Source: Gordonibacter sp. An230
GTDB lineage: Bacteria; Actinomycetota; Coriobacteriia; Coriobacteriales; Eggerthellaceae
Direction of reading: 5' to 3'
DNA: 64,000 bases
Assembly (NCBI RefSeq): GCF_002159915.1
Contig: NZ_NFJP01000009.1
Location: forward strand, 1 to 64,000
Part shown: positions 1,807-39,986 of the stretch, in pieces
Layout: every line of letters starts with the position of its first letter
Position numbering within the stretch: the stretch's first letter is position 1
Notes under the pieces: generated by a model
Databases searched by the model: none
What the model was told of the DNA's origin: nothing
The model's input: the letters and a program-made list of their open reading frames with translations, nothing else
Translations under genes and position numbers: made by a program

Positions 1807-4800
1807 TGGACGAGATCCGATGCCTTCTTGAAGAGATGGCAGATGCGGGAATACGTTTATGGGTCGAGGACGGAAAGCTAAAATTCAGAGCGCCATCTGG
1901 AGCCATGACGGTAGAAAGGGCTAACCTGATAAAGAAGAACAGGGATGCTGTAATCGCAGCCCTCAACGAACCTCGCCCGATAAAGCGCGAGCCCGAGAAA
2001 AGGTACGATCCTTATCCTCTTACAGACATACAGCAAGCTTATCAGCTTGGCAAGAGCGAAGCTTATCCCTACGGCGGAGTGGGATGCCAAGGGTACATGG
2101 AGATTAGCTTGGGAGGCGTTGAATTCGAGCGATTGAACAACGCATGGCGAAAAGTGGTGGCTCGGCATGACGTACTTCACTCGGTCATTTCTGAAGACGG
2201 TTATCAGCAGGTGCTGGAAGAATATGATGTGGGATTGATTGAATTCGTCGAAGCCGAATCGCGAAGCTTAGAAGAGGTCGCTTCCGAATGTCGTAGAACC
2301 ATGGATCACAAGGATTATGCAACCTCGGTCCATCCGTACGAACTGAAAGTGAGTACTGATGGGATTAAGTCAATCCTCCACATATCAGTCAACTTGGCTC
2401 TTTGTGACTTTTTGAGCATTACCATAATCCTCAATGATCTGGCTCGGGCATATGACGGCGAGCAACTAGATAGCAGCGACGAGATTTCCTTCAGAGATTT
2501 TGTCATGGATGCAAAAACCCGAGGAGTTTCCAGCCCTTCTCTAAAAGCAGATGAGGAATACTGGTCGGCACGCATTGACGAATTGCCTCCCGCCCCTATG
2601 CTTCCCATGGGGCCGAATCCTGACGTGCGAACGGGAGTTAGATTCATTAGGCACCAGATGAGCCTTACCGATAACGAATGGGCAGAATTCCGTCGCACAA
2701 GCGCAGAGAAAGGGGTTACCCCCACAGCTGCATTGGTCGCTGCATTCTCGGACACTTTGGCGCTGTGGGCGGAATCATCGGATTTCACGATCAATATGAC
2801 AATGTTGAACAGGGGGGACGACATTCCTGGAATCATGCGTACGGTCGGTGATTTCACAATGTCAAGCCTATTGGGATTGATTCGTGACGAGCGCGCGCCC
2901 TTCTTCTCCCGCGCTCGTGCAGCGCAATCACAGCTATGGTCGGAACTTGAACATAGAAGCTTCTCCGGAGTCTCCGTGCTGAGAGAGATCGCGCGACGAC
3001 GTGGACGTGCGGGCGGTGGGGCGCTCATGCCGTTCGTTTTCACGAGCAGCATCGGCCTACGCGGAGGATCGTCCTTGAGTGAAACAAGCCTCTTTCGTGG
3101 CTCTCGAGTCATCGGCGGACTTTCACAAACCCCCCAAGTATGGCTTGACTGCCAAGCGATGGAGTGGAATGGGTCTCTTGTAATCAATTGGGATGAGCGC
3201 GCTGGAGTCTTCCCTGACGGTCTGGTTTCAGATGCCTTTTCATCCTTCGAACAGACCCTTAGAAGTCTTGCCTCGAGCAAAGCGACATGGGAAGAGACAC
3301 GAATAGTCCATTTACCTCAAAAGCAGAAACTTGTTCGTATCGCAGCAAACGACACCGGCAAAGAAATAGTGTCGAGTACCCTCCACTCAGACTTTATGAA
3401 GACAGCCCTCTCTCATCCAGAGCTCCCCGCCGTGCGATTGGGAGATGAGTTTGTGACATATGCGGAGCTGAGGGCGCTTTCCCTCAAAGTGGCCCATAAG
3501 TTAAAGCGAGGAGTTCGGACTGCGATCATTCTTGAGAAGAGCATTGCACAAGTAGTTGCGGTGATCGGCTGCAGCCTTGCCGGCGCTCCCTTTATTCCTC
3601 TATCCCCTGACCATCCTCGATCAAGAGTCGACACCGTTATGGGCAATGCGGAAGTGGGCGCGGTTCTCGCCAAAGCTGAAACCCTCGAAAGGCTTGACTT
3701 GGCCGGCAAAGAAGAGGCTATGGATATCGACCTTATCCTAAGCGATGACATTTCCGCTAACTTCGAGGATCGGACTTTGCCATCTGACGAAGCCTACGTG
3801 ATCTACACGTCCGGCTCCACCGGGGTGCCGAAGGGGGTGGCGGTGAGCCACGCCGCCGCGTGGAACACCATCGCCGACATAAATTCTCGATTCAACGTTA
3901 GGCAGAGCGACAAGATCATCGGATTGGCCGAGCTAACCTTCGACCTAGCTATATATGATATATTTGGAATCCTTTCCGTCGGAGGAGAGCTTATCTTCCC
4001 CGAACCCTCATCACTTAATGATCCGTCGAGCTGGTGCGACGTAGTTGTTAAACGCAAGGTAACGATATGGAATTCTGTCCCCCAGCAGATGCAAATGCTT
4101 TCTTACTACCTTGATACGGCTCCGGATGTCCCCTCTCTTTCCTTGAGGCTCGCTCTCTTGTCTGGCGACTGGATACCCGTCTCTCTACCCAACGATATCG
4201 CAGATAAAATCCCTCACTTGAAAATGGTGAGCCTCGGCGGTGCCACCGAGGGAGGAATCTGGTCGATCTTCCACGAAATCAATCCATCGGATTCGGAAAA
4301 GGCAAGCATTCCCTACGGAAAGCCTCTTGCCAACCAGGAGTTTGATATCGTAGGACGCGAACTTGAATCGCTGCCTCTTCTCGTTCCGGGTGAAATCATC
4401 ATTAGCGGAAAGAGCCTTGCTTCGGGCTACCTCAATGACCCTGTTCGAACATCCGAGAGTTTTATAATGCGGGATGGAGTGAAATGCTATCGAACCGGCG
4501 ACATGGGCAAATACCTGGAAAACGGCGACATCGAGTTTCTCGGGCGTGCAGATCAGCAGATTAAAGTACGGGGTTACCGCGTCGAGCTAGGCGAAGTGGA
4601 AGCCGCTTTAGAAAAGGCACCGGGAGTGGACAAGGCTGTCGCATTTGCTGCCGACAACGATAAAACCGACAAGCATCTTCTCGCCGCAGTCATCGCCGAA
4701 AAGGTCAATCCCGACAAGGCAGAATCCTTGTTCAAGAGATCTACGGTCGCCATGAAAGAATGTATGAGAGATCGCTTCAGCAAAATGGCTGTCAACGAAG

Positions 4801-18935: not shown

Positions 18936-21245
18936 TCACTCCCCGGGCTTAGTGGTCATGAGGCGGTAGAGCTCGGTGTCCCTCGGGAAGCGGTTGGCGA
19001 ACGGCACGATGGCGCCGCCGTAGCGCAGGAGGCCGCAGCCCGCCTCGGCGTTGGTGATGTAGCCCATCTGCTCTCGGCTGATGTTGAGGAGTTCGCCCAG
19101 TTTCCCGCGGTCGGCGGCCGCCTGGTTGAGCATGACGATGAGCTCGGAGTTGGAGAGCATCGTGGAGGCCAAGACCGAATCGAGCAGGTACTCCACGTTC
19201 TGCGTGATGGCCGTGGGGTAGGCGTTGCGCTTGCGGAAGCGGCGCCACGCGCTGTTGAAGAACGCGCCGGAGTACTCGTTCTCGAACACCACGTGGAACT
19301 CGTCTATGAAGATGTGCGTGCGCCTGCCCGCGCGCCAGTTGTCCGTCACGCGGTTGAGCATCGCGTCGGTGATGACGAGCAGCCCCATGGTCTTGAGCTG
19401 GCGGCCCAGGTCCATGATGTCGTAGACGAGGAGCCTGTTGCGGGTGTCCACGTTGGTTGGGTGCGCGAACGCGTCCAGCGTGCCCGAGGTGAACAGCTCC
19501 AGCGAAAGCGCCAGGTCACGCGCCTGCGGCTCGGGCTGGGCGAGCAGTTTGTCGCGCAGGTGGGCGAGCGTGGGCGCCTCGCCGCCGCGCAGGTAGTCGG
19601 CGTACACCGCCGAGGTGCAGCGGTCCACGACCGACTTGGCCTGCGGCCCCAGTCCCCGGCGGTCGAGCTGCTCGAACAGTGACAGCACGAACTCGCTCTT
19701 GTCGGCCACGGGGTTGCCTCCCTCGCCGTAGCCCTCCACCATGTCCATGGCGTTGATGTGGTGGGGGCTGCCCGCCGCGATGCGCACCACCTCGCCGCCC
19801 AGTGCCTCGGCGAGCGAGGCGTACTCGCGCTCGGGGTCGCATATCACTATGTCGTCGTCGGTCGAGAGCGCAAGCATAGCTATGAGCTCCTTGGTCGAGA
19901 AGCTCTTGCCCGAGCCCGGCACGCCCAGCACGAACGCGTTGGGGTTCAGGAGCCGCGACTTGTCGCACAGGATGAGGTTGCGCGATATGGCGTTCTCGCC
20001 GAAGTACATGCCGCCCTCCTCCATGATCTCCTGCACGCGGAACGGCATGAGCACGGCGAGGCTCTCGGTGGTGAGCGTGCGCATCGCCTCGATGCGACGC
20101 ACGCCTATGGGCAGCGCGGTTGACAGCCCGTCGAGCTGCTGGAAGCGCAGGACCGAGAGGCGGCACAGGTGCTTGCGCGCGCACGAGAGCAGCGCCTCGG
20201 TGTCGGCGTCGAGCTCCTCGGGCGTGTCGGCAAAGTGGACGAGCGTCACCGTGGCGAACATCATGCGCTGGTCGCGCGACATGAGGTCGTCCAGGAACTC
20301 GCGGCTCTCCTTGCGCTGCTGCTCCATGTCGTAGGGCACGGCCACGTTATAGTTCATGTTGGCGTTCTGCCGGCGCGTCCAGTTGGTGATGTTCGTCTCC
20401 ACACCGAGCAGTCGCCGCTCCACCTCGCGCACCGCCTCGTCAGTGGGCACGGGGACGACGTCTATGGAAAGCGCCATCGCGCGCCTCGCGTCGGTAAGCT
20501 CGGCCAGAAAGCCGTCCTTGATGTAGGACGCGTAGTCGGTCAGGTACAGGGCGCGCGCCCAGCGGCCGCCCACCCGCAGGCGGTCGGCCTCAATGCCCGC
20601 GCCCTCGGGCGCAACGGCGTCCTTGAACGAGTGCCCCCGGCGCATCGAGGCGCGCACGTCGATGGGCAGGTCGTCGGCGCCGCCCCGGTAGAAGCCCCTC
20701 AGAAGCCGCAGCTTGCCCTCTGCGTCGAGCTCCTCGCAGTGCGCCCCGAGGCGCGCGAGGTGCGCGGCCGTCTCCGCCGACGCGCGGTTGAAGTAGGAGC
20801 GGGCCTCCTGGATGCTTCTCCCTCCCACGGCGATGGTAAGGTATATCTCGCGCACCATGGAATTCGCCCCCGTGGCCTTCTCTATGAGCATGGCGTTGTA
20901 CTCCTCGCGGTAGCGGTCGAGCCCGTCGCCCTTGGGCGGTATGAGGATGCGCCGCCCGAGGGCTTCGGCGTCGAGCCTGCGCACCGCCACGGTGACCTTG
21001 GCCCGCGCGTCGGAGTCGAAAGAGTTGAGCAGGTCCGAGTAGCCCAGGAACATGGCCTCCTTATCCTCCTTTGACGCCGCCGCGTAGTTCACGTCGCTCA
21101 CGCGCCAGGTCTTCGCGTACTCGCCGTCGTCGGTGAGGCACACGCCGTCGGGCCAGATGCGGCGCACGGGCACGGCGTCCTCGGCGGTTTTCGGCGGGAC
21201 GAACCGCGTGCCGCCTTTGCGCCGCCTAGCTGCGAGTGCGGCCAT
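18936..21245 (-). CDS. VirB4-type conjugation ATPase
   Basis: A 769-residue cytoplasmic ATPase of the VirB4/TraE/CagE family. Walker A is GVPGSGKSFSTKE and Walker B is RTHIFIDEFHVVF. The C-terminal arginine-rich block (AWRRFRKRNAYPTAITQN) is typical of conjugation ATPases. It powers assembly of the mating channel and works with the PrgI-, VirB6- and CHAP-type proteins next to it. The start has AAAGGAGG at good spacing. It overlaps the PrgI gene by 20 bases, as is common in this module. Confidence 0.95.
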   Translation of the reverse strand: MAALAARRRKGGTRFVPPKTAEDAVPVRRIWPDGVCLTDDGEYAKTWRVSDVNYAAASKEDKEAMFLGYSDLLNSFDSDARAKVTVAVRRLDAEALGRRILIPPKGDGLDRYREEYNAMLIEKATGANSMVREIYLTIAVGGRSIQEARSYFNRASAETAAHLARLGAHCEELDAEGKLRLLRGFYRGGADDLPIDVRASMRRGHSFKDAVAPEGAGIEADRLRVGGRWARALYLTDYASYIKDGFLAELTDARRAMALSIDVVPVPTDEAVREVERRLLGVETNITNWTRRQNANMNYNVAVPYDMEQQRKESREFLDDLMSRDQRMMFATVTLVHFADTPEELDADTEALLSCARKHLCRLSVLRFQQLDGLSTALPIGVRRIEAMRTLTTESLAVLMPFRVQEIMEEGGMYFGENAISRNLILCDKSRLLNPNAFVLGVPGSGKSFSTKELIAMLALSTDDDIVICDPEREYASLAEALGGEVVRIAAGSPHHINAMDMVEGYGEGGNPVADKSEFVLSLFEQLDRRGLGPQAKSVVDRCTSAVYADYLRGGEAPTLAHLRDKLLAQPEPQARDLALSLELFTSGTLDAFAHPTNVDTRNRLLVYDIMDLGRQLKTMGLLVITDAMLNRVTDNWRAGRRTHIFIDEFHVVFENEYSGAFFNSAWRRFRKRNAYPTAITQNVEYLLDSVLASTMLSNSELIVMLNQAAADRGKLGELLNISREQMGYITNAEAGCGLLRYGGAIVPFANRFPRDTELYRLMTTKPGE

Positions 21246-22586: not shown

Positions 22587-22919
22587 CTATCCGACGATGA
22601 TATCCAAGATTTCCTTCGCGAACGTGATGACCACGCCGCCCGCCAGGGTCAGGAAGCCGTTGGCGCGCTGGGACGGGTCGTGGCTCTTGAGCGACATGCC
22701 CACCTGCACCACGCCGAAGCCGAGCAGGATGAGCCCGACGCTCCTGATGAGCCCGAAGATGAACGTGGAGAGGTTGTCCACCGCCGCTATCGGGTCGGTC
22801 GCCGCGAACGCGGCGGGCGGCTCCAGCGCCAAGGCCGAAGCGGCGCAGACGGCGATTGCCGCCATGAGCCGCGCGCGGGCTGCGGGGCGGGCCTTCTTCC
22901 CCTCAGTGGTCTTTCTCAT
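22587..22919 (-). CDS. Small two-helix conjugation protein (VirB2/Maff2-like)
   Basis: A 110-residue protein from an ATG with AAAGGAG upstream. A signal-peptide-like segment (about 15-38, ending AAFAA) precedes two hydrophobic helices (LSTFIFGLIRSVGLILLGFG and GFLTLAGGVVITFAKEILDI). Size, topology and place between VirD4 and the VirB6-like gene match the Maff2/VirB2-like proteins of Firmicutes conjugative transposons, possibly a pilin-like channel subunit. The assignment rests on architecture and context more than on strong motifs. It overlaps the VirD4 gene by 17 bases. Confidence 0.8.
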   Translation of the reverse strand: MRKTTEGKKARPAARARLMAAIAVCAASALALEPPAAFAATDPIAAVDNLSTFIFGLIRSVGLILLGFGVVQVGMSLKSHDPSQRANGFLTLAGGVVITFAKEILDIIVG

Positions 22920-24723
22920 GCGTTGGTTCTCCTTTCCCGCCCGCCGCCTCCGCCGCGAGCGCTGCCTCGGCCTCCTCCCCGTCGAGCACGACGCAGCCCG
23001 CAGGCGCGGCCTGCGCGCTCGCGGGGGCAACGCCTTCGTAGGGCGCCACGGCGGCGCTTGCCAGCGGGCAGGCGCCGTGCTCGTAGGGCGGCGCGCCGCC
23101 CTCGGGGGTGAGCCGCGCGGCGGGATGCCGCGCTATGTCGAGCTTTAAGTCGATGATGGGGCGCTCGCCGCGCACGAAGAGCAGCGCGCGGGAGTTGTCG
23201 AGCATGCGCACCTCGTCGGGCGTCATGAGCTCGCGCCCCGAGATCTGCTGGTTGGTGGACCAGCTGCCGCCCCTCCCGGTGGTCCTGCCGTGCGTGTCGA
23301 GGTCGATGGTCTCCTTGCCCAGAAGCTCGCTGACGTACTTGTGGGTGGATTGCTCGTTGCCGCCCAGGTACAGGAACTCGTCGCAGTTGCCGACGATGGA
23401 CTCCCACTGCTTGTCGAACAGCGCCCGCAGCTGCGCCATGTTCTGGATGATGATCGACGCGGACACCCCGCGCCCGCGCATGGTGGAGAGTATCTTCTCA
23501 AAATCATTGGGTAAGCTCACGTTGGCGAACTCATCCATGAGGAAGTGCACGTGCACGGGCAGCTGCCCGCCGTGTTTTCCGTCCGCGAGCGCGAAAAGCT
23601 GCTGGAACAGCTGCGTGTAGAGGACGGACACCAGGAAGTTGAAACTGGTGTCGTTGTCGGGTATGACTGCGAACAGGGCCACCTTGCGCTCCCCGAGCGA
23701 CGGCAGGTCGAGCTCGTCTGTGGCGGTGAGCGACGCCAGGGCGTCGAGGTTGAACTTCTCCAGCCTGGAGGCGAGCGTCACCTGGATGGATTTGAGCGTC
23801 TTGGCCGAGCCGGAGCGGTAGCTGCGGTAGTATTTGAGCGCGATGTGGCCAGGGTCCCTCATCTCCAGCCGGTCGAACAGCTCGTCGAGCACCGAGGCGT
23901 AATCGTCGTCGTCCTCGCGCACCTCGCCGGCGCGCAGCATCTCCATGAGGGTGGCGTAGTTGCGCTCCTCGGGCGGTGCCTCGTGCACGAGGTAAAGCAG
24001 AAGCGCCAGGTGCAGCATCCCGGCGGCCGTGTCCCAGAAAGGATCCTGGCTCTGCGCGCCCTTGGGAGTCGTCGCCTTGAACAGGTTGGTGTTGAGCCGC
24101 TGCGCGTCCGCGTCCGACTCGATGTAGGAAAGCGGGTTGTAGCAGTGGGACCTCTCCATGCGCACGAGGTCGAGCACGCGCACCTCGTAGCCCCTCGATT
24201 CGAGCAGCCCGCCCACGGCGCGCACGATCTCGCCCTTCGGGTCGAGCACCACCATCGATGTGTTGGCCTGGCAGGCGTTGGGCAGGCTGAACCCGCGCGT
24301 TTTGCCTGCGCCCGAGCCGCCCACCACGAGCGTGTTCATCGAGCGCCTGTGGGCGTGGGTGTCGTAGCTCATGCGAAAATTGCGCGTGAGCAGCTTGTCG
24401 CCTGCGGGGTCGCGCCCCCGGTAGCGGTGGCAGATGCGGCGGGCGTCACCCCACCGGGCGCTGCCGTGCTCCTCGCCGGGGCGCAGGTTGCGCCGGGTGA
24501 GCAGCCACGCCGCCGCGCAGGCGGCATACAGGACCAGGAACAGCAGCGCCCATCGCGCGCCGCCCGCCGTGGGCTTCGTCGAAAAGGGATCCGAGAACGC
24601 CGCGATGAGCGAGGCGAGCGACCCCCCGCCGTCCAAGGCGGGGGCGGCGACGAACCCCGCCCACGCCGCCAGCGGCGCGGCGAGCGCGGCGGCTGCCGCC
24701 TCGCCAGCCGTCGGGGGCCTCAT
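22903..24723 (-). CDS. VirD4/TraG-type conjugation coupling protein
   Basis: A 606-residue membrane ATPase. Two N-terminal helices are followed by Walker A (VGGSGAGKTRGFSLPNA), the TraG-family block SMVVLDPKGEIVRAVG, Walker B (HFLMDEFANVSLPNDFEKIL) and RGRGVSASIIIQNMAQL. It delivers the relaxase-DNA complex to the secretion channel. I chose the ATG that overlaps the upstream stop (ATGA), which removes a 49-residue Arg-rich upstream extension. The C-terminal tail is Ala/Pro-rich. Confidence 0.95.
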   Translation of the reverse strand: MRPPTAGEAAAAALAAPLAAWAGFVAAPALDGGGSLASLIAAFSDPFSTKPTAGGARWALLFLVLYAACAAAWLLTRRNLRPGEEHGSARWGDARRICHRYRGRDPAGDKLLTRNFRMSYDTHAHRRSMNTLVVGGSGAGKTRGFSLPNACQANTSMVVLDPKGEIVRAVGGLLESRGYEVRVLDLVRMERSHCYNPLSYIESDADAQRLNTNLFKATTPKGAQSQDPFWDTAAGMLHLALLLYLVHEAPPEERNYATLMEMLRAGEVREDDDDYASVLDELFDRLEMRDPGHIALKYYRSYRSGSAKTLKSIQVTLASRLEKFNLDALASLTATDELDLPSLGERKVALFAVIPDNDTSFNFLVSVLYTQLFQQLFALADGKHGGQLPVHVHFLMDEFANVSLPNDFEKILSTMRGRGVSASIIIQNMAQLRALFDKQWESIVGNCDEFLYLGGNEQSTHKYVSELLGKETIDLDTHGRTTGRGGSWSTNQQISGRELMTPDEVRMLDNSRALLFVRGERPIIDLKLDIARHPAARLTPEGGAPPYEHGACPLASAAVAPYEGVAPASAQAAPAGCVVLDGEEAEAALAAEAAGGKGEPTHEKDH

Positions 24724-25586
24724 CTGCCCTCCGACCTGTCGCGCCGCCTTTCGGGCGGGGCCATGCGCTCCGACACGTCGCGCGCGGCCTTGCCGATCTC
24801 GCCCAAGGCGTCCCTCACCTCGCGCGCGCTCGCTTCCGGTGGCGCGGGCGCGGCGACGGCTCCCGAACATTCGAGTCCCAGGCGGCGGGCGGCTATGCCC
24901 GCCGCGAGGTCGGCCTTCGCGGCGTGCGTCTCCCTGTCGTAGGCATCGAGGCCGAGCGCCATGCTGGCATGCGCCGCCTCGACTATCAGCGCCGAGAGCA
25001 GCTGCGGCTCATCGAGCCCTCGCTGCACCCGTATGGCCCCCGAGGCGTGATCGTACTCGGCGGGGACGCCGCCGAGGTCGTCAACCGGCTCTATTCTCGT
25101 CGGCGAGCGAGCGACCAGCGCCGCGAGCGCGGCGTGAGGGTCCACTCTGCGCGGCAGGCATGGCCGCGCGGTGGTCTGCGACACGTCGAACACCTTGCGC
25201 ACGTCGTACAAGACGCCGATGCTGCCGTCGTCGCGCACGTACTCCTTGACGGGTTCGATGATGGGGATCGCCTTCTGCCCGCGCCTCACCGACGCTCCCT
25301 GCCTGCGCCAATGCTCAGCCGTGCCGACGCGCGTCGCGTTCGGTATGCGGTCGGCTATGAGCAGGATGTTCGTGGCGGAATGGTGGGGCAGCTGCGCCGC
25401 CACCCGCATGTACGTCTCCAGCGCCGCTGGATCCGAATTCGCGCGCAGCGCGGCGGCGTCGGCGCGGTCGAATGCCTCTTGGCGCTCGCTCTGCTTCCGC
25501 TCCGCCCACGCTTGCTTGTCGAACTCGCCTTCCGGCGCGAATTCCCGGCTACTGCGTTCTTCCATCATCCGGTAGATATCTTGCAT
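24720..25586 (-). CDS. ArdC-like antirestriction/ssDNA-binding protein
   Basis: A 288-residue protein. The region at about residues 55-125 (LPHHSATNILLIADRIPNAT, then RRQGASVRRGQKAIPIIEPV) is the N-terminal fold of ArdC/LtrC-type proteins, which bind single-stranded DNA and can protect incoming plasmid DNA from restriction. The C-terminal part looks like the degenerate protease-like half found in these proteins. The canonical HExxH is not obvious (EAAHASMAL at the expected place), so proteolytic activity is doubtful. It sits between PcfB and VirD4 and overlaps VirD4 by ATGA. Confidence 0.75.
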   Translation of the reverse strand: MQDIYRMMEERSSREFAPEGEFDKQAWAERKQSERQEAFDRADAAALRANSDPAALETYMRVAAQLPHHSATNILLIADRIPNATRVGTAEHWRRQGASVRRGQKAIPIIEPVKEYVRDDGSIGVLYDVRKVFDVSQTTARPCLPRRVDPHAALAALVARSPTRIEPVDDLGGVPAEYDHASGAIRVQRGLDEPQLLSALIVEAAHASMALGLDAYDRETHAAKADLAAGIAARRLGLECSGAVAAPAPPEASAREVRDALGEIGKAARDVSERMAPPERRRDRSEGR

Positions 25587-25589
25587 GCT

Positions 25590-26315
25590 CTACCTTCCTT
25601 TCTCCAGGGCGCGCGCCATGGGCTTGCGAGTCGCATGCGCTTCGCCGCTCATTTCGCGTGCCGCCGATATGGCGCGCATCTCCGCGCGCACGGACAGCCT
25701 GCCGCAGCGCTTGCGCGCTGCCTCACCATCCTTTTCTGAGAGCCGTTTTCTCGCGGATGTAGGCCCTGACGGACGGCTTTCCGCCGGGGCTTGCGCTAAA
25801 GGGGAGGCGTCGCTGTCGCCCGGCGATGCCAGCAAATCATCGAGGAGCGCCGCAGCTTGTTCGGGTGCGCGCGGCGCCTGCGCGGCGTGCGCGCGCCCAT
25901 CGTGCCGATTCCCCTCGCGCGGCTCGGGCGCTTCGCGGGCGTCGTCTCTCATGCGGCACAGGCCGAGCCTCTCCGCGATGCGGTTCACCTTGCTCGCGTC
26001 CTCGGTCCGCACCAGAAGATCGACGGATTCGCCGTCCTTCTGCTTCACGACGGCGTATGCGATGCCGTAGCGTCGGGCCTCCTTCGCGAACCCTTTCAGA
26101 TCGTCAAAGCGGATGGGGAACACGCGCAGCTCACGGCCCGATTTGAGCATCGCCGAAAGCCGCGCCCTGCCCTTGGTTTTCTCGTTGCTCGCCGCGGCCG
26201 CCAGCAGCATGGCGGCCGCGTTCTTCGCGCCGGCGCCCGTGATGCGCAGCGCCACCTCGGTTCCCTCGAGCGTCATCCTCACGATCTGCTCAGCAGCCTC
26301 GCTCGATGCGTCCAT
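25590..26315 (-). CDS. PcfB family protein (DUF3801)
   Basis: A 241-residue protein whose first 130 residues match the DUF3801/PcfB pattern (GAKNAAAMLLAAA, then GRARLSAMLKSGRELRVFPI and DLKGFAKEARRYGIAYAVVK). PcfB accompanies the relaxase of Gram-positive elements and helps recruit it to the coupling protein. The C-terminal 110 residues are charged and probably disordered. It overlaps the end of the relaxase gene by 26 bases and precedes the ArdC-like gene by three bases. Confidence 0.85.
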   Translation of the reverse strand: MDASSEAAEQIVRMTLEGTEVALRITGAGAKNAAAMLLAAAASNEKTKGRARLSAMLKSGRELRVFPIRFDDLKGFAKEARRYGIAYAVVKQKDGESVDLLVRTEDASKVNRIAERLGLCRMRDDAREAPEPREGNRHDGRAHAAQAPRAPEQAAALLDDLLASPGDSDASPLAQAPAESRPSGPTSARKRLSEKDGEAARKRCGRLSVRAEMRAISAAREMSGEAHATRKPMARALEKGR

Positions 26316-27636
26316 GACCTTCCACCTGCCTTTCCTCTCTGTTCGCTTCGGCGCCCTCGATCTGCGCGATGCGGGCCGGCAGCTCGGCGCTTCTTGCCCG
26401 GATGCGCGCGCAGGCGCGCGCCTCGCGCCTTGCGCCCCGCAGCTCCGACGCTATCTCGGCGATGCGGGGGTTTGGGGGCGCGGGGGATCCCGCCGCCTTG
26501 GAGCGCCTCGCCTCGTTGCGCAGCGCGCGGCGTTCGGCCTGCAGCGCCTCGGACTTGTCGGCCAAGGCTCTTTCGTATGCCGCCAGCTGGGATCGCGTCT
26601 CTATCCCCTCGCGCGCGAGCAGCGCGAGCTCCCCCGATATGGCTTCGAGTTCGCGCAGATCCTCGCGCAGCAGGAAATGCGCCCGCCCGCCTGGCGCCCT
26701 CTGCCTCTTCGCGCCGTTGAGCAGCGCCATGTACCTGCGGTACAGGCTCACGAGCGTGCCCTTCGGCACGGGCGGGCGCTCCTTGGGAGCGGGCCTCGGC
26801 CTGCCGAGGGGCAGGCGCTGGCGGCTGTTGGCGAGGATGCGCGCGCCGATGCCCTCCTGCGAGTACGCGTCCCCGAAATTGCGGCGCAGGCGCACGAAAC
26901 GCTCCTTGCCGGGCGGGCGCACCGATATGTCCTTGCCCACCTTCACGTCGTAGCCCATCGCGCGCAGGTTCGCGTGGAACTGGCGCATGCTCGCCGCACG
27001 CCCTACGGCCTCGTCCACGTCGGCCTTCACGAGCGAGCGCCACGTGGGGCGCCCCTCGCGCTCGGCGCGCCATTCGGCGTGGTGGCGCGCGCCGCCGCGC
27101 CCGGGGCTCTCCACCACCGAAAGACCATGCTCCCGGCACAGTTCGTCGGACGCTTCGCGCATCGCGCGGTAGCAGGCGGCGTCTCGGTGGAAGCGCCTGC
27201 CGTCGGCGAAGGACACAGAGTTGACCACGAAGTGGTTGTGGAGGTGGGCCTTGTCCAGATGGGTGGCCACCACAACCTCGAAGCGGCCGCCCCACAGCTC
27301 TTGGGCGAGGGCGACGCCCACCTCGTGGGCCGTGGCGGGGTCGGTCTCGCCGGGCGCGAACGCCTGGTATCCGTGGAAGGCCACGATGCCGCCCGTCTTG
27401 CCGTATTGGCGCTTGGTCGCGTTCATCTCTTCCAGCGCCGTGGCGGGCAGGCAGTTGACGCCGGTCACGTACAGCTGCCGCTCAGTCTTGCCGGGGTCGG
27501 CGGCGTAGAGGATGGCGGCGCCCACGCCCTGGAGCTCCCACTCGTCGGGCGAGCCTTCGGCCTTGTCCGGGTTCCCGGCGTACCCGAGCACGCGCGCCAG
27601 GCGCCCTTCGACCTTCCAAATCGACGTGACGGCCAC
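26290..27636 (-). CDS. mobA: MOBP-type relaxase (MobA-like)
   Basis: A 448-residue protein from a GTG with AAGGAGG seven bases upstream. The N-terminal nuclease domain has the histidine cluster H126..H131-x-H133-x-H135 (THLDKAHLHNHFVVNSVSF) that binds the metal ion in MOBP relaxases. Y19 is one candidate for the DNA-attacking tyrosine. The C-terminal half is helical, basic and coiled-coil-like. It nicks one strand at oriT, probably the hairpin region at 27968-28101, and pilots it to the recipient. It follows mobC with a one-base gap. Confidence 0.93.
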   Translation of the reverse strand: MAVTSIWKVEGRLARVLGYAGNPDKAEGSPDEWELQGVGAAILYAADPGKTERQLYVTGVNCLPATALEEMNATKRQYGKTGGIVAFHGYQAFAPGETDPATAHEVGVALAQELWGGRFEVVVATHLDKAHLHNHFVVNSVSFADGRRFHRDAACYRAMREASDELCREHGLSVVESPGRGGARHHAEWRAEREGRPTWRSLVKADVDEAVGRAASMRQFHANLRAMGYDVKVGKDISVRPPGKERFVRLRRNFGDAYSQEGIGARILANSRQRLPLGRPRPAPKERPPVPKGTLVSLYRRYMALLNGAKRQRAPGGRAHFLLREDLRELEAISGELALLAREGIETRSQLAAYERALADKSEALQAERRALRNEARRSKAAGSPAPPNPRIAEIASELRGARREARACARIRARSAELPARIAQIEGAEANREERQVEGHGRIERGC

Positions 27637-33944: not shown

Positions 33945-36900
33945 TCACCGTTCGAACTCCTTTTTCTTTTCGGCACGTTCCGGCTCATGACCGTCGTCGC
34001 ACAGCTGCTCGGGGCCGCTTTTTCCCACGTCGAGCAGGGCGTCGAGCTCCGCGAGGCGGGCGGACTTCTCTTTCAGCTCGCCTTCGTGGGGAAAAGGTTT
34101 GGTGGCCTCGGTGCGCGCAGCCTCCATCTGCCTGCGGGCTTCTTCGAGGCGCGCGCGGCACTCGTCAGCCTCCGCGCCCATCTTGGCGATGGCGTTGTCC
34201 AGCCTCGTCACGGCGCCTGCCGCATCACCGCCCAGCTCGCATTTGTGCTCGGCTTCGCCGACGATGCGCATCTCGAACGCCGCGCTCATGCGGTCGAACG
34301 TCAACTCCAGGGAGAACCCCCGGTACGACCCGAGCGGCATGGCCCCCGTCTCGGTCATCTCGCCGCGCGCCGCGAGCACCGCCTCGCCTGCCGCCGCACG
34401 CTCCCGGAAGGCGGTGCCGCGCACTTCCATCGAAAATGCCTCCTTCGTCGGCGGCGGGTTCGCCCTTGCCTTCGCGACATCGGCCTCCAGCGATTCGAGG
34501 CGCGCCGACAGCGACGCCATGCGCTGCGGGTAGTCCTTGGCGGCCTTGTCCTCCAGCGCGTACTTCTGCGCTAGGTGGTCGGCCTTCAGCATCCGCAGGC
34601 GGGACACCTCGACATCGAGGCCCATGCGCTCCTTGACGAGCGGGTTTCCCGTGGCGAGCGCTTTGAGCTCGGCGTAGGAAAGCGCCGCCTCGTCAACGTC
34701 GGCGGCTGTGCGAACGGGCGACTTCGAGGTCATGACCTGCGCTATGAATCGCTGCTTTCCCTCTACGAGCTGGTAGAGGTACGCGTCGAAGGTGCCTTCG
34801 GTGACGTAGCGGTACGCCTCCACCTCGGCATTCATGTTGCCCTGGCGCTCGATGCGCCCGAGGCGCTGCTGGAGGTCGGCGGGGCGCCACGGGCAGTCGA
34901 GGTCGTGGATGGCGGCGAGCCTGCGCTGCACGTTGGTGCCCGCGCCCATCTTCTGCGTGGACCCCATGAGGATGCGCACGGCTCCGGCGTTCACCTTCCC
35001 GAAGAGGGCGAGCTTCTTCGCCTCGGTGTCGGTGTCGTGGATGAACGCCACCTCGCCCTCGGGCACGCCGCGCGCCACGAGCTTGCGGCGCAGATCGTCG
35101 TACACGTTGAAGGACCCGTCGCCCTTCGGGGTGGAGAGGTCGCAGAACACGAGCTGGGTGAGCCTTTCCTCGGCGCCGTCGCGCCATATGCGTAGCACGT
35201 TCTCGCAGCAAGCGTTCACCTTGCTGCCCTCGAAGTCGGGCAGCGCGGGGTCGGCGAGGCGTTGGTCGAGGGCTATCTTGCGGCCGTCGTTGGTGATGAG
35301 GAGCATGTTGTCCTTCTCGGCGGGCACACTGCCCGCCCTCACCGCCTCGGCGCGCTCGGCGAGCCCCGCCACCAGCTCGCGCTGGACGGGGGAGGGCTGC
35401 ACCGCCACGTTGCGCAGATGCACCTTGGGCGTGGGAAGCGCCAGCGTGTCCGCCGTCTGCACGTCGGCGACCTGTTTGAACATGGACATGAGCTCGGGTA
35501 GGTTATAGAAGCGCGAGAAGCGCGTTTTCTGCCGATAGCCCGTGCCTTCGGGGGCCAGCTCCAATGCCGTCACTGTCTCGCCGAACGTGGACGCCCAGCA
35601 GTCGAAGTGGGAAAACCCCAAGCGCTCCAGCTCGCCGTATTGCAGGTAGCGCTGCATGGTGTAGAGCTCCGCCATCGAGTTGGACACCGGCGTGCCCGTG
35701 GCGAACACCGTGCCGCGTCCGCCGGTCTGCTCGTCGAGGATGCGGCACTTCATGAACAGGTCGGAAGACTTCATGGCCTCGCTCTGGGCGATGCCGCTGA
35801 CGTTTCGCATCTTGGTGTGGAAGAACAGGTTCTTGTAGTAGTGGGCCTCGTCCACGAAGATCCGGTCGACGCCGAGCTCCTCGAACGTGAGCACGTCGTC
35901 CTTGTCGGTTTGGTCAGCGAACTTGGCGAGTCTCACGTTCAGGCGCTTCTTCGTGATCTCCATCTGCTTCACGCTGAACCGTTCGCCGTGCTGCGCCTTG
36001 ATCTCGGCTATGCCGTCGGAGAGCTCGGCGATCTGGCTCTCTATGAACGCTCGCTGACGCTCCACCGATACGGGTATCTTCTCGAACTGGGTGTGCCCCA
36101 TGATCACGCCGTCCCAGTCCCCCGAGGCGATGCGGGCGCAGAAGCGCCTGCGGTTGCGCCGCTCGAAGTCGCGCTTGGTGGCCACCAGCAAATTGGCGGC
36201 GGGGTAGAGCCTCAGCCATTCCGACGCCCACTGCCCCGTGAGGTGGTTCGGCACGACGAACAGGGGCTTGGAGCAAAGCCCTATGCGCCGCAATTCCATG
36301 GCGGCCGCCGCCATGGTGAATGTCTTGCCCGCTCCCACCTCGTGGGCGAGAAGCGCGTTTTTCCCGTAGAGGATGCGGGCGACGGCGTTTCTCTGGTGCG
36401 GCCTCAGCTCTATCTCGGGGTTCATGCCGGGAAACGCCAGGTGCGAGCCGTCGAACTCGCGCGGGCGGATGGCGTTGAACCGCTCGTTGTAGGCGGCGAC
36501 CAGCCTCTCCCTGCGCGCCTGGTCTGAGAACACCCACTCCTTGAAGGCCGCCTTGATGGCCTCCTGCTTGGCGAGCGCCACCGCCGTCTCCTTCTTGTTG
36601 AGGACGGGTTTCTTCTTGCCGTTTTCGTCCTCGACGTAATCGACCACGCGCGCGTCCTTGAGGTTGAGCGTCTCCTCGATGATGTGGTAGGCGCTCATGC
36701 GGCGCGTGCCGTAGGTCGACAGCGCGCGCACGTTCGAGCCGTCGCGGCCCTTGCCCTCGATGCGCCACTGCGCCGTGGCGGCGGAATACCTCACGGCCAC
36801 CTGTTCGCGGACCCAGTAGGGCGGGTCGAGCAGGTGGAGCACGAACTCACGCACGTCGTCGGCGGGGATCCACGTCGCTCCGAGGCGCACGCTTATCTCG

Positions 36901-39900
36901 GCCGCCCCCAAATCGGGCGGCTGGGCGCAGCGCAGCGCCTCGATATTGGGAATGTACGAGGGGTCGGACGCGGCCGTCAGCTCGGCGATGCGCAGCTTCG
37001 CCCGCACGTTGCCGGAGAGGTATTCGTCGGCGGGCTGCCAGACGGGCTGCTCTCCGGTCGCCGTGGGAACGCGGAATATGGCGCCTTTCAGCGCTTCGGC
37101 CAGTTCGTTTTCCCCCATTCCGGTCAACCTCGCCATGTAGGGCAGATCGACCCGTCCGCGTTCAGACAGCGAGGCAGCCAGCGCCGCCTGGGGGTCGTCG
37201 GCGTGCGTCACGGGCGCGTTGGGCCGTATCGTGCGCTTGGAGAACATGTCCGCCTTGCGCTCGAAGTTCCCCTCGCCGTCGAGGATCTCCAATGCGCACA
37301 GCAGCGGGTAGGAGGAATCCTGCTTGAGCGCGGCGGCGTTCGCGCGCGAGTTCAGGATGCCGTGCTTCGCCGCGTAGGCGTCGTAGAGCGCGTTGAGCCT
37401 TGCGCGCTCAGCCTCCACCTCCGCATCGGGCGCGCCGTCCTTTTCGAGCGTTATGAGCCGTCGGGCGCAATCCCGTAGGGGGATCATTCCCCCGATTCGC
37501 TCAGCGGCCGCCTTCGAGGGATTCTGCCGGTGCATGAGGGGACCCATGCGGAAGTAGAGGGCGCCGCCAGATTCGGCGTAGGACCAGTCGCGCACGTCCG
37601 GGTCTGCGGGGATGGCGTCGCCGGGCTCGCTTTCGGGCGCATCCCATTCGGGGATGCGGGCGGTCATCTTGCCGAGGGCTTCGCGCAGCGCTTCTTCCAA
37701 GTCGGTGCCGGGCTTCGGCCTGCATTCGGAGTCCGCCCGCCCGTAGGCGTTCGTCGTCGCGGCGAGCTCGCCGAGCACCATGTCGGGGTGGGATGCGAAG
37801 TAGGAGTTCACGTCGATGCCCGCCTCGACGCGCTCGGTGTGCGCCCATTCGGGCTCGCAGACCTCGGCGCGCTCGCGCTTCTGGAGGATGACCACGTCCG
37901 CCGTGACTTCGGCATGCGGCGAGAAGGCCGTGTTGGGCAGGCGGACCGCTCCCACGAGCTCGGCGCGCTCGGCGATCCTTCTGCGGGCGGCGGGATTCTT
38001 CTTGTCGAGCGTGCCTTTGGACGTGACGAAAGCCACGATGCCTCCCGGCCTCACCAAGTCGAGCGCCCTCGCGAAGAACCAATCGTGCACGAGCAGCCCC
38101 TCGTCCCGATGGCGGGGATCGTCGACCTGGTAGCTGCCGAAGGGCACGTTTCCCACCGCGACGTCGAACGATTCGTCGTCGAGGTCTGCGTGCTCGAAGC
38201 CGCCGTGGATGATCTCCGCGGACGGATGGAGGGCGCGGGCGATGCGCGCGGTCAGGCCGTCGAGCTCCACGCCGACGAGGCGGCAGCCCGCAAGCGCCTC
38301 CGGCATGGCGGCGAAGAACGCGCCCGTGCCGCATGACGGCTCCAGCACCCTGCCGCCCGAAAGCCCCATGCCCCGGATGGCCTCCCATATGGGGCGCGCG
38401 ATCTCCTGCGGGGTGTAGAACGCCGTGAGCGTGGAGGCGCGCGCCGCCGCGTACTCCCCGTCGGAGAGCAGCTGGCGCAGCCGGGCCTTCTCGTGCGCCC
38501 ATTTCCCCGATTCCTCGTCGAACGCGTCGGCGAGGCCGCCCCAGCCCACGTAGCGCGCGAGCGCTTCGCGCTCTGCGGCGTCGGGCGGGCGGCCTTCCCC
38601 CTCGACGGCGACGAGCGCTTCGATGGCCGCGATGTTGCCGCGCAGCCGCCCGAGCGGGGTGGCGAGCTGTTCGGGATACTCATTTGCCCCATCGTCGAAC
38701 GAGAAAGCCAGCTGGCCCCGTTCGGGCGGCTTTGCCTCGGAACGGCGGGAGGCGGGCTTGTCGCCCGCCTCCCTTCGGCTTGTCTTGGTTTTCTCTTGGC
38801 CGCGCTGCTTTTCTAGGCGTACACGACCTTCATCGCCGCCGCTTCGCGGGCCGCTGCCGCCGCCTCGGCCATCTTCGCCGCCCACGCTGCCGGATCCGCC
38901 ACCTTCGCCGCTTCGTCCAACCCCCTGCTCTTCGCCACGCGGGCCGCCAGGTCGTCCGCCATCGCCTCCGCGAGGGCTTCCGTCTCGGCCAGGTGCCTCG
39001 CCAGCGCCCCCTGCGCCAGCAGGTCCGCCCGCAGCTCGGGCTTGCTCGATCTCAGGTATTCGTCCCTCATCAGCGCGAACGGCCCCAGGTTCGCCGCCGC
39101 TTCCTCTTCCGTTGCCAGGGTCGGCAGCAGAAGACCACCGCCCTCCCTGTACGCCATCTCCATCGCCTCTCCTTTCATCGGGCTCTTTTGCCGGATTATG
39201 GACGGCGGCGGCCAAGGGCGCAAACGTGCGATGGGATGCTTCCGGGGCTCTTTCCCGCATCGCGGGGGCTATCGTGCGCAGGACGGCTGCGGCGGCGCTT
39301 GCCGTGCGGCAGCCGAGCGCGTTCATCGCCCGGACCGTGCCGAACATCGGCAGGGCGTCCGCCGCGCGCGGCGTGATGAGCGCGCCGCCTTCGATGCCGC
39401 AGCGCGACGCCGCCTCGTAGGCGGCAGATGCCGCCGCGAGCTCCAGAAGCAGATCCCCGGCCTCGGGGGCTTCGAGGCGTTCCAGGCCGCTTCCGCCGCG
39501 CGCTTCCCCGATGGCCGCGACGGCCGATTCCGCGTTTTCGCGTACGGCGGCGCTCGCCGCCTCGGCGATGGCCTCGATGGTGCCTTTCCTGGCATCAGCC
39601 CCGAAGGATTCATGGAGGGCGCCGACGATGGCCGCCTCCTGCTCCGGGCCGCCAGCCCAAAGCGGCAGCGGGCGGGCGGCGCGCCCGGGCGCCGTGTCCG
39701 ACACGTCGAAGTAGTAGCGCAACCGCCCCGTTCCCGGGGCTCCGAACACGGCGATTCCGACTGATCCGCGCTTCACCCGCCGGCCGAACAGGGCATCCCA
39801 GCGCTCCAATTCCAACACCGCCTTGGCGTCCGGGCGCTGCGCGTGGACGAGCGCCTGCTCCGGGAAGGGCAGCTTGTAGTTGCGGCCCGCCGATTCGAGG

Positions 39901-39986
39901 AACGCCTTCCACGCCTCGGGGCTTTCGCTCAAAGCGACGAGGGTCGTTCGGTAGAGTTCTTCAATGGTCCGGTACGTGCTCGCCAC
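33945..39986 (-). CDS. Giant N6-methylase/SNF2-like helicase (LtrC-like ICE protein)
   Basis: A 2013-residue protein from a GTG with AGGAGG six bases upstream. Residues 1-250 are an LtrC/ArdC-like N-terminal region ([20 protein letters not shown]). Residues 255-430 are a Gly/Arg/Glu-rich low-complexity linker. Then comes an adenine-methylase-like domain ([19 protein letters not shown], with NVPFG at the NPPY position) and a DEAD/SNF2 helicase ([15 protein letters not shown] Walker [12 protein letters not shown] Walker [13 protein letters not shown] motif VI). The C-terminus is coiled-coil. Such proteins are common in Tn1549-like elements and may protect or process incoming DNA. The linker overlaps the tnpV gene in another frame. 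Confidence 0.88.
38813..39163 (-). CDS. tnpV: TnpV family protein, nested out of frame within the helicase gene
   Basis: A 116-residue reading frame on the same strand as the giant helicase gene but in another frame. It begins MEMAYREGG, with AAGGAG five bases before the ATG. It shows the TnpV pattern from start to stop: LLLPTL near the N-terminus, [18 protein letters not shown], then [13 protein letters not shown] and a C-terminal VVYA. Most codons end in G or C (24 of the first 30 by hand count), as in real genes here. The helicase frame over the same bases encodes only low-complexity Gly/Arg linker. TnpV function is unknown; it is a frequent passenger of conjugative transposons. I judge both frames translated. 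Confidence 0.75.

Follow-up and report, generated by a model that had tools for sequence, protein, structure and literature searches.

The window considered here is a stretch of 64,000 nucleotides from Gordonibacter sp. An230 (contig NZ_NFJP01000009.1), in which a giant gene for an N6-methylase/SNF2-type helicase occupies positions 33945-39986 of the minus strand. The gene starts with GTG, encodes 2013 aa and forms a single unbroken open reading frame (ORF). Wholly within this ORF, on the same strand and out of frame with it by +1, lies tnpV (38813-39163; 116 aa, ATG start), the product of which matches the Pfam family PF14198. In the helicase, a conserved N-terminal domain (residues 1-262, 39201-39986), delimited by phmmer and hidden Markov model (HMM) matches and found in the same ORF as the methylase part, is followed by a Gly/Arg/Glu-rich linker (approximately residues 263-445, 38652-39200), recognized from its translation, its composition and its GC content by codon position. 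Further along are the N-6 methylase domain (PF02384; residues 511-706, 37869-38456) and a SNF2/DEAD-type helicase part with ResIII, SNF2-rel_dom and Helicase_C stretches (residues 1191-1716, 34839-36416), all on the minus strand; the Pfam scores are 43.3 bits for N6_Mtase, 37 for ResIII and 30.6 for SNF2-rel_dom.

According to the original prediction, a full-length TnpV frame with a good ribosome-binding site and a strong GC bias at third codon positions lies in this linker, and each of these traits can be found. TnpV scores 70.7 bits against PF14198 (cut-off 27), its residues 5-113 covering positions 2-110 of the 111 of the profile; NCBIfam assigns no family to it. A Shine-Dalgarno (SD) sequence, AAAGGAG, can be read at 39169-39175 (minus strand), 5 nt upstream of the ATG. 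Read in the TnpV frame, the overlap has a GC content of 0.74/0.51/0.88 at the three codon positions; read in the helicase frame, the values are 0.88/0.74/0.51, the remaining helicase (residues 450-2013) having 0.67/0.46/0.89. The first pattern is that of a normal gene and the second its inversion, so that the codon bias found here can be attributed to TnpV. The helicase residues overprinted by tnpV (275-391) are, as had been claimed, a Gly/Arg/Glu linker (37% Gly, 57% Gly+Arg+Glu). At the level of sequence, the out-of-frame nesting of tnpV in the helicase gene of the window is confirmed, the strong evidence being comparative, and we put the probability that one stretch of DNA codes two same-strand proteins, the helicase and the nested TnpV, at roughly 0.9.

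Considered alone, the openness of the window is weakly informative: given TnpV, the helicase frame would be open with P = 0.31, and given the helicase, the +1 frame with P = 0.55, so that openness means little in such GC-rich DNA. A chance open frame in a GC-rich gene could be suspected from the latter value, which is not improbable, and from the 111 other +1 segments of at least 100 codons present in helicase ORFs with a GC content of at least 0.5. This explanation is refuted by the Pfam score and by conservation in AT-rich homologues, the same place, frame and SD recurring in genes in which GC over the ORF is as low as 0.31 (range for homologous TnpV ORFs, 0.31 to 0.71). Moreover, a TnpV HMM gives 111.3 bits for the real frame and 16.0 for the best of 2000 helicase-synonymous reshuffles; as this HMM was trained on the homologous loci together with the window, the independent score is that of Pfam. 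The probability of a chance frame is practically negligible.

Position, start site and constraint of TnpV in related helicases

A helicase search of genome contigs yielded 284 confirmed relatives, the best 80 of which (L009-L088) were analyzed. Full-length homologues are 72-73% identical to the window helicase in L009 and L011 (best segment) and 99% in L010. A TnpV HMM match can be found in 65 of the 80 loci, in L067 as a partial, 39-residue piece; of the 15 loci with no match, 14 have a helicase ORF truncated by the start of the contig, and in L053 this ORF is broken. Once duplicates are removed, and with the window and the other loci of its own genome counted, TnpV lies at +1 inside the helicase ORF in 66 of 68 loci, the exceptions being L071, where the helicase ORF is split or broken, and L007, from another genome of the order, where the helicase is missing. 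The suggestion that linkers of related helicases look like an out-of-frame TnpV, for which a translation of the frames had been proposed, is thus borne out by that translation. The spacing between tnpV and the methylase domain differs by kilobases, e.g., in L027 and L078, meaning that large inserts are present between the linker and the core.

Regarding the start site, 59 of the 62 nested loci that could be tested have an SD core of at least 5 nt upstream of an in-frame ATG, compared with 148 of 4917 other same-frame ATGs in the same genes; three of the 65 loci were set aside as lying at a contig edge or having no start codon. Upstream of the ATG, the TnpV frame is closed by a stop within 15 codons in 32 of 59 loci, and in L069 and L079 the distance is 0 codons. 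Taken together, the SD, the ATG and these stops would be most simply explained by internal initiation. A programmed frameshift, by which TnpV would be made as the tail of the N-terminal domain, has some precedent in Sinorhizobium phage PBC5 (L221, 9159-15749, minus strand), where a TnpV-like domain is the in-frame C-terminus of a long upstream ORF and the helicase ORF overlaps from 9732, and likewise in PHROG 938, which matches the small phage proteins described below at its tail (positions 2084-2165 of 2185). The in-frame tail of PBC5 may be due to a frameshift or a sequencing error. Because the TnpV-frame stop directly precedes the ATG in L069 and L079, a frameshift fusion is excluded there, and with the stops and SD cores of the other loci this makes frameshifting highly improbable. 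An AGG count in the helicase Arg codons under the SD (55 of 55) was discarded: the filter required SD overlap, which nearly forces AGG, so that the count is circular and supports nothing.

The two frames differ in how they change. Over 22 independent pairs, changes silent in TnpV and not in the helicase number 413 versus 193 expected (2.14-fold), changes silent in the helicase and not in TnpV 112 versus 228 expected (0.49-fold), and changes altering both frames 314 versus 409 expected; the single-change classes contain 16 helicase-stop cells, which arise from treating multiple changes per codon one at a time. In the set from integrative and conjugative elements (ICEs), differences by nested codon position are 261/155/463. 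As had been proposed together with a synonymous-site analysis, and because of the 2.14-fold and 0.49-fold classes, TnpV is, judged by its substitutions, the constrained frame and the linker its overprint or spacer, the main visible constraint on the latter being the avoidance of stops.

This avoidance was measured in 62 unique loci by fixing the TnpV protein of each locus and redrawing its codons from the usage of the helicase itself. No helicase-frame stop is seen versus 395 expected, while the third frame contains 890 stops versus 690 expected and is open in none of the 62 loci. Since the window alone gives P = 0.31, the proof of openness rests on the AT-richer relatives. Both frames are conserved beyond what the other forces, TnpV by its substitutions and Pfam match and the helicase frame by its missing stops; conservation of the helicase frame means here the absence of stops, not conservation of residues. 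It can also be imagined that the N-terminal domain, tnpV and the methylase-helicase are three separately translated genes, the helicase frame over tnpV being open and untranslated. In favor of such an arrangement, the annotated helicase coding sequence (CDS) starts well past tnpV in L089 and just past the small gene in L223 and L225, L006 has tnpV and a helicase without N-terminal domain, and L071 retains tnpV despite its split helicase ORF. However, the missing stops, including those of the comparison given below, would then need another reason, and both helicase domains are on one ORF in 80 of 104 nested matches (for the other 24, the fetched stretch showed one only). Three separate genes are very unlikely.

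TnpV copies inside and outside helicase genes

TnpVs lying away from helicases offer a natural control. Sixteen genomes were searched, giving 74 TnpV places, 63 of which were fetched and pooled with the other loci; these genomes were chosen for holding the pair and are not an unbiased census. When TnpVs are sorted by the presence of a helicase N or C domain alongside, a fair sort in that frame openness is not used, the helicase frame is stop-free in 86 of 86 unique TnpVs beside such a domain and in 0 of 40 elsewhere (39 with 202 stops and one locus-edge case with 5); none of these TnpVs has an open third frame. An earlier sort by a spanning open frame gave 82 of 82 open versus 0 of 39, partly by construction. 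In the same way, T-ending codons before a stop-forming dinucleotide occur 0 times in 1896 in nested genes versus 202 in 934 in standalone ones, but the zero follows from defining nested genes by their spanning open frame, and the domain-sorted comparison is the fair form of this result.

The genome of the window has three TnpV matches. The second copy (C33, L005) has the same nested layout and a TnpV 57% identical to that of the window. The third (C56, L006) is divergent (38 bits, profile positions 21-111) and precedes a helicase without N-terminal domain. Among relatives of this genome, PF14198 was found in 2 of 60 genomes, its own counted.

A standalone tnpV might also have been inserted recently into the linker in the ICE lineage of the window, as standalone copies are common (39 unique ones in the fetched loci, most from the 16 genomes). 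Such an insertion is contradicted by the distribution of the nested form, which is present in ICEs of both Actinomycetota and Bacillota, with TnpV identity to the window down to 20%, as well as in several plasmid families and in phages; in a tree, moreover, the rows nearest to the window TnpV are all nested. We consider a recent insertion extremely improbable. In that tree (89 rows, 60 nested and 29 standalone; 114 columns), standalone TnpVs do not form one clade (p-AU of 0.0026, approximately unbiased test; 6 changes), from which several moves between the nested and standalone states can be deduced. The tree is unrooted and drawn with a midpoint root, and the order of the two states is not given by it. 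It leaves out the long-branch loci L006, L091-L094 and L103, the edge loci L017, L045, L057, L061, L080 and L220, duplicates of the window or own-genome loci, proteins shorter than 100 aa and near-copies.

Plasmid and phage counterparts

Helicase matches from plasmids and phages were hand-picked for diversity and are not random samples. Among 19 plasmid-type regions (L089-L107), 11 have a nested +1 ORF scored by TnpV HMMs. One of these, the t5 HMM, was iterated over the same regions, so that its scores there are not independent, whereas Pfam and the t2 HMM are. The Pfam TnpV profile is over cut-off in five divergent ORFs from Bacillota plasmids (L091, L093, L094, L102, and L103), with 54.2 bits in S. 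suis, 33.3 in E. faecalis, 29.3 in Listeria, 76.5 in Virgibacillus and 31.6 in Ruminococcus albus. Unscored +1 ORFs immediately upstream of the methylase domain are present in L100 (Campylobacter) and L101 (Enterobacter). Relatives of the Enterobacter ORF occur in 64 plasmid records; for the Campylobacter ORF the number is 212, with 206 records coming from Campylobacter. In four regions fetched via the small protein (L223-L226, from Pseudomonas syringae, Citrobacter, Burkholderia, and Helicobacter), the helicase frame is open and the small ORF at +1 in 4 of 4, the chance of an open frame being 0.0003, <0.00025 (none of 4000), 0.060 and 0.0025, respectively. The helicase N-terminal domain can also be found in a separate downstream gene in L089 (18645-19556) and L090 (17994-18950).

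Nineteen viral contigs were reached through helicase searches (L110-L128). In nine of them, a nested +1 ORF is scored by the HMMs (weakly in L126); in seven more, an ORF lies at the corresponding position but scores weakly or not at all; the last three have no such ORF (L124, L127, L128). When only the phage small proteins were used as queries, 28 loci were obtained, six of them on contigs already reached by the helicase search; in 25, the small ORF lies at +1 inside a giant DarB-like gene, and the other three are L133, spanned by a long ORF at the contig end, L146, at an edge, and L135, with a degenerate helicase. No helicase-frame stop is present in 24 phage loci versus 76.6 expected, most of these loci having been found through the small protein and L133 having no codon-usage data in this test. 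For 16 other loci, the figure of 0 versus 133 expected is ascertained, as they were found as +1 ORFs in an already open helicase ORF.

The kinship of these small proteins is graded. Compared with the TnpV profile, the phage profile gives an hhalign probability of 78 (E 1.8e-5 over 43 columns), and the Pfam TnpV profile scores L110 with 16.7 bits, under cut-off, and L118 not at all. The first helices follow one another in the same order in the two predicted models (TnpV 28-40, 42-50, and 54-79; phage 3-17, 19-27, and 31-51). The nested phage protein is likely, though not proven, to be kin to TnpV. The proteobacterial plasmid proteins match the phage type with an hhalign probability of 46 (E 2.1e-4), which suggests kinship to TnpV via the phage type. 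The phage model itself has its best Foldseek match (E 1.3) in 2apl, PG0816 of Porphyromonas gingivalis, the nearest solved fold to this type (Z 7.7, root-mean-square deviation 2.4 over 64 residues; next match 4.3); no sequence match to PG0816 was found, and a Z below 8 in a helical protein can reflect a common arrangement. PF08989 (DUF1896), which we take to be the 2apl family, matched none of three genomes and no control.

An ancient and widespread design can be envisaged, in which DarB/LtrC-type methylase-helicase genes of conjugative elements, plasmids and tailed phages from several phyla would carry, invariably at +1 and upstream of the methylase domain, a small helical protein of one TnpV superfamily as a dedicated partner, a pair that annotation, by showing one gene or the other, would have hidden; we consider this slightly more likely than not. 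A number of observations speak against the reading of a nested gene pair given above. Regarding the start site, the SD core is of 4 nt in L051, L076, and L082, and L077 has no start codon at the expected place. The original prediction had named, as what would contradict it, homologues with no TnpV frame in the linker and tnpV elsewhere. The linkers of homologous helicases do have a TnpV frame, but the nested ORF is absent in nine divergent helicases (L095-L099, L105, L124, L127, L128), and 40 unique tnpVs lie elsewhere. In Bacteroides phage BKO1-TP3 (L222, 5636-5965), a 110-aa +1 ORF just upstream of the DarB-like methylase domain has no detectable similarity; considering this ORF and the nine helicases, the helicase-TnpV pair is not obligatory. 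Phage differences are weakly skewed by nested codon position (542/512/638), far less than in the ICE set. The proteobacterial plasmid proteins are not matched to TnpV itself (hhalign probability 0.5, E 0.11), nor by Pfam for L100 and L101, and confident fold matches are missing for the TnpV model (best Foldseek E 5.1 in the PDB and 0.76 in BFVD; Z 6.1 in a second look) as well as for the phage model.

Possible function, known systems and annotation

It can be hypothesized that the helicase mRNA is translated from two sites: ribosomes initiating anew at the internal one would produce TnpV, and those coming from the helicase start would continue across the overlap to give the giant protein, the disordered linker of which would tolerate whatever the TnpV codons impose. 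Coming from the same message, TnpV would always be inherited and induced with the helicase; the copies that mobilizable elements have without a helicase would be this same protein, taken along by hitch-hiking elements. As to its role, TnpV might be a small helical protein that works together with the methylase-helicase to process or protect DNA during transfer. This role is favored, tentatively and at less than even odds, because similar ORFs recur in this gene class across conjugative elements and phages with unrelated recombination systems.

A different role, that of a recombination directionality factor (excisionase) whose site in the helicase gene merely ensures co-expression with the transfer genes, was postulated in part for TnpV of Tn4451, its involvement in excision being based on similarity to lambda Xis in passages of PMC3158075. 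Standalone tnpV indeed adjoins serine recombinases in L108 and follows a helix-turn-helix gene in L109. However, the serine integrase of Tn4451 works both ways without such a factor, according to passages of PMC5704250, which also cite a paper whose title presents TnpX as the only transposon protein required. Similar nested ORFs are also present in giant phage and plasmid genes, and an Xis-like fold was not found in structure searches. An excisionase would seem to fit the standalone copies near recombinases and to fit badly with the factor-free Tn4451 integrase; we consider it rather unlikely, and the helicase-partner role remains preferred. In L109 (Vescimonas fastidiosa, 3733-4342), the standalone tnpV overlaps the end of the upstream helix-turn-helix gene by 41 bases (3965-4005).

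The window TnpV belongs by Pfam to the same family as TnpV of Tn4451 and Tn6104-Tn6106, short helical proteins of mobile elements. Published copies are separate genes in mobilizable elements, as far as passages of PMC3158075 describe them, whereas the present tnpV is embedded, in another frame, in a helicase gene belonging to a conjugative element. This helicase gene falls into the same class as the polyvalent methylase-helicases (DarB- and LtrC-like) known from plasmids, phages and Tn1549-like elements and treated in the main text of PMC5512222; it combines a methylase with an SNF2 helicase and is located beside conjugation genes. That main text contains none of the words "overlap," "linker," "low-complexity" and "tnpv," and the nested gene is not described in it under those words. 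No earlier report of the nested tnpV-helicase pair was found in the open-licence literature, supplements excluded. In paramyxoviruses, the C protein encoded within P (PMC3934983, in part) likewise combines a compact protein in one frame with a loose spacer in the other; the proteins are unrelated, and the pair described here, whose small protein is the constrained one, belongs to phages and to mobile elements of bacteria. Long bacterial overlaps missed by annotation have likewise been described in E. coli O157:H7. Judging by the titles and opening abstract lines of the reports (PMC4683798; PMC5960689; PMC9927249), those are single recent orphan or antisense cases, whereas here both genes are on one strand, a Pfam family is involved, and conservation extends across phyla.

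To our knowledge, it is rare in bacteria for a long nested gene on the same strand to be conserved between distant lineages. In the present case, the controls are unusually clean in that the same protein family also exists outside the overlap, and the dual-coding system can be tested in laboratory strains. The pair illustrates how a disordered linker can be the overprint of a neighbor gene, and it points to TnpV-like proteins as possible unnoticed partners of large polyvalent helicases in conjugative elements and phages. It also explains clashing annotations, in which TnpV is called and the helicase trimmed, or the reverse.

The expectation that annotation had missed the pair is only partly right, since some records show TnpV and trim the start of the helicase. 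In L089 (Monoglobus), TnpV is annotated as a CDS, while that of the helicase is given from 9097 onward, despite a frame open from 5986. In L090 (Cohnella), TnpV is a CDS and the helicase is unlisted, but its frame closes early in this case (12222), and pseudogenes are omitted from the PLSDB table used for this region. The small gene is a hypothetical protein in L223 and L225, where the helicase CDS begins after it, and most of the listed Enterobacter, Citrobacter, Salmonella, and Campylobacter records name nothing but the helicase at the overlap.

With regard to the surrounding element, the window encodes a CD1110-type VirB4 (18936-21245; 968.4 bits, cut-off 325), a CD1115-type VirD4 (22903-24870; 504.4 bits, cut-off 250) and a PF03432 relaxase (26290-27636), together with Toprim, ParA, ParB and sortase. 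From this gene content the element is, on sequence grounds, classed as Tn1549-like and conjugative. The helicase of Adlercreutzia hattorii (L010, 8001-14042), 99% identical to that of the window, indicates that the element moved recently or that the strains are close. In Streptococcus, SNF2 genes of ICE or plasmid origin (L104 and L091) carry a nested TnpV-like ORF, and integrative and mobilizable elements with a tnpV of their own integrate into SNF2 of such ICEs, as stated in passages of PMC9815147 and PMC7168690.

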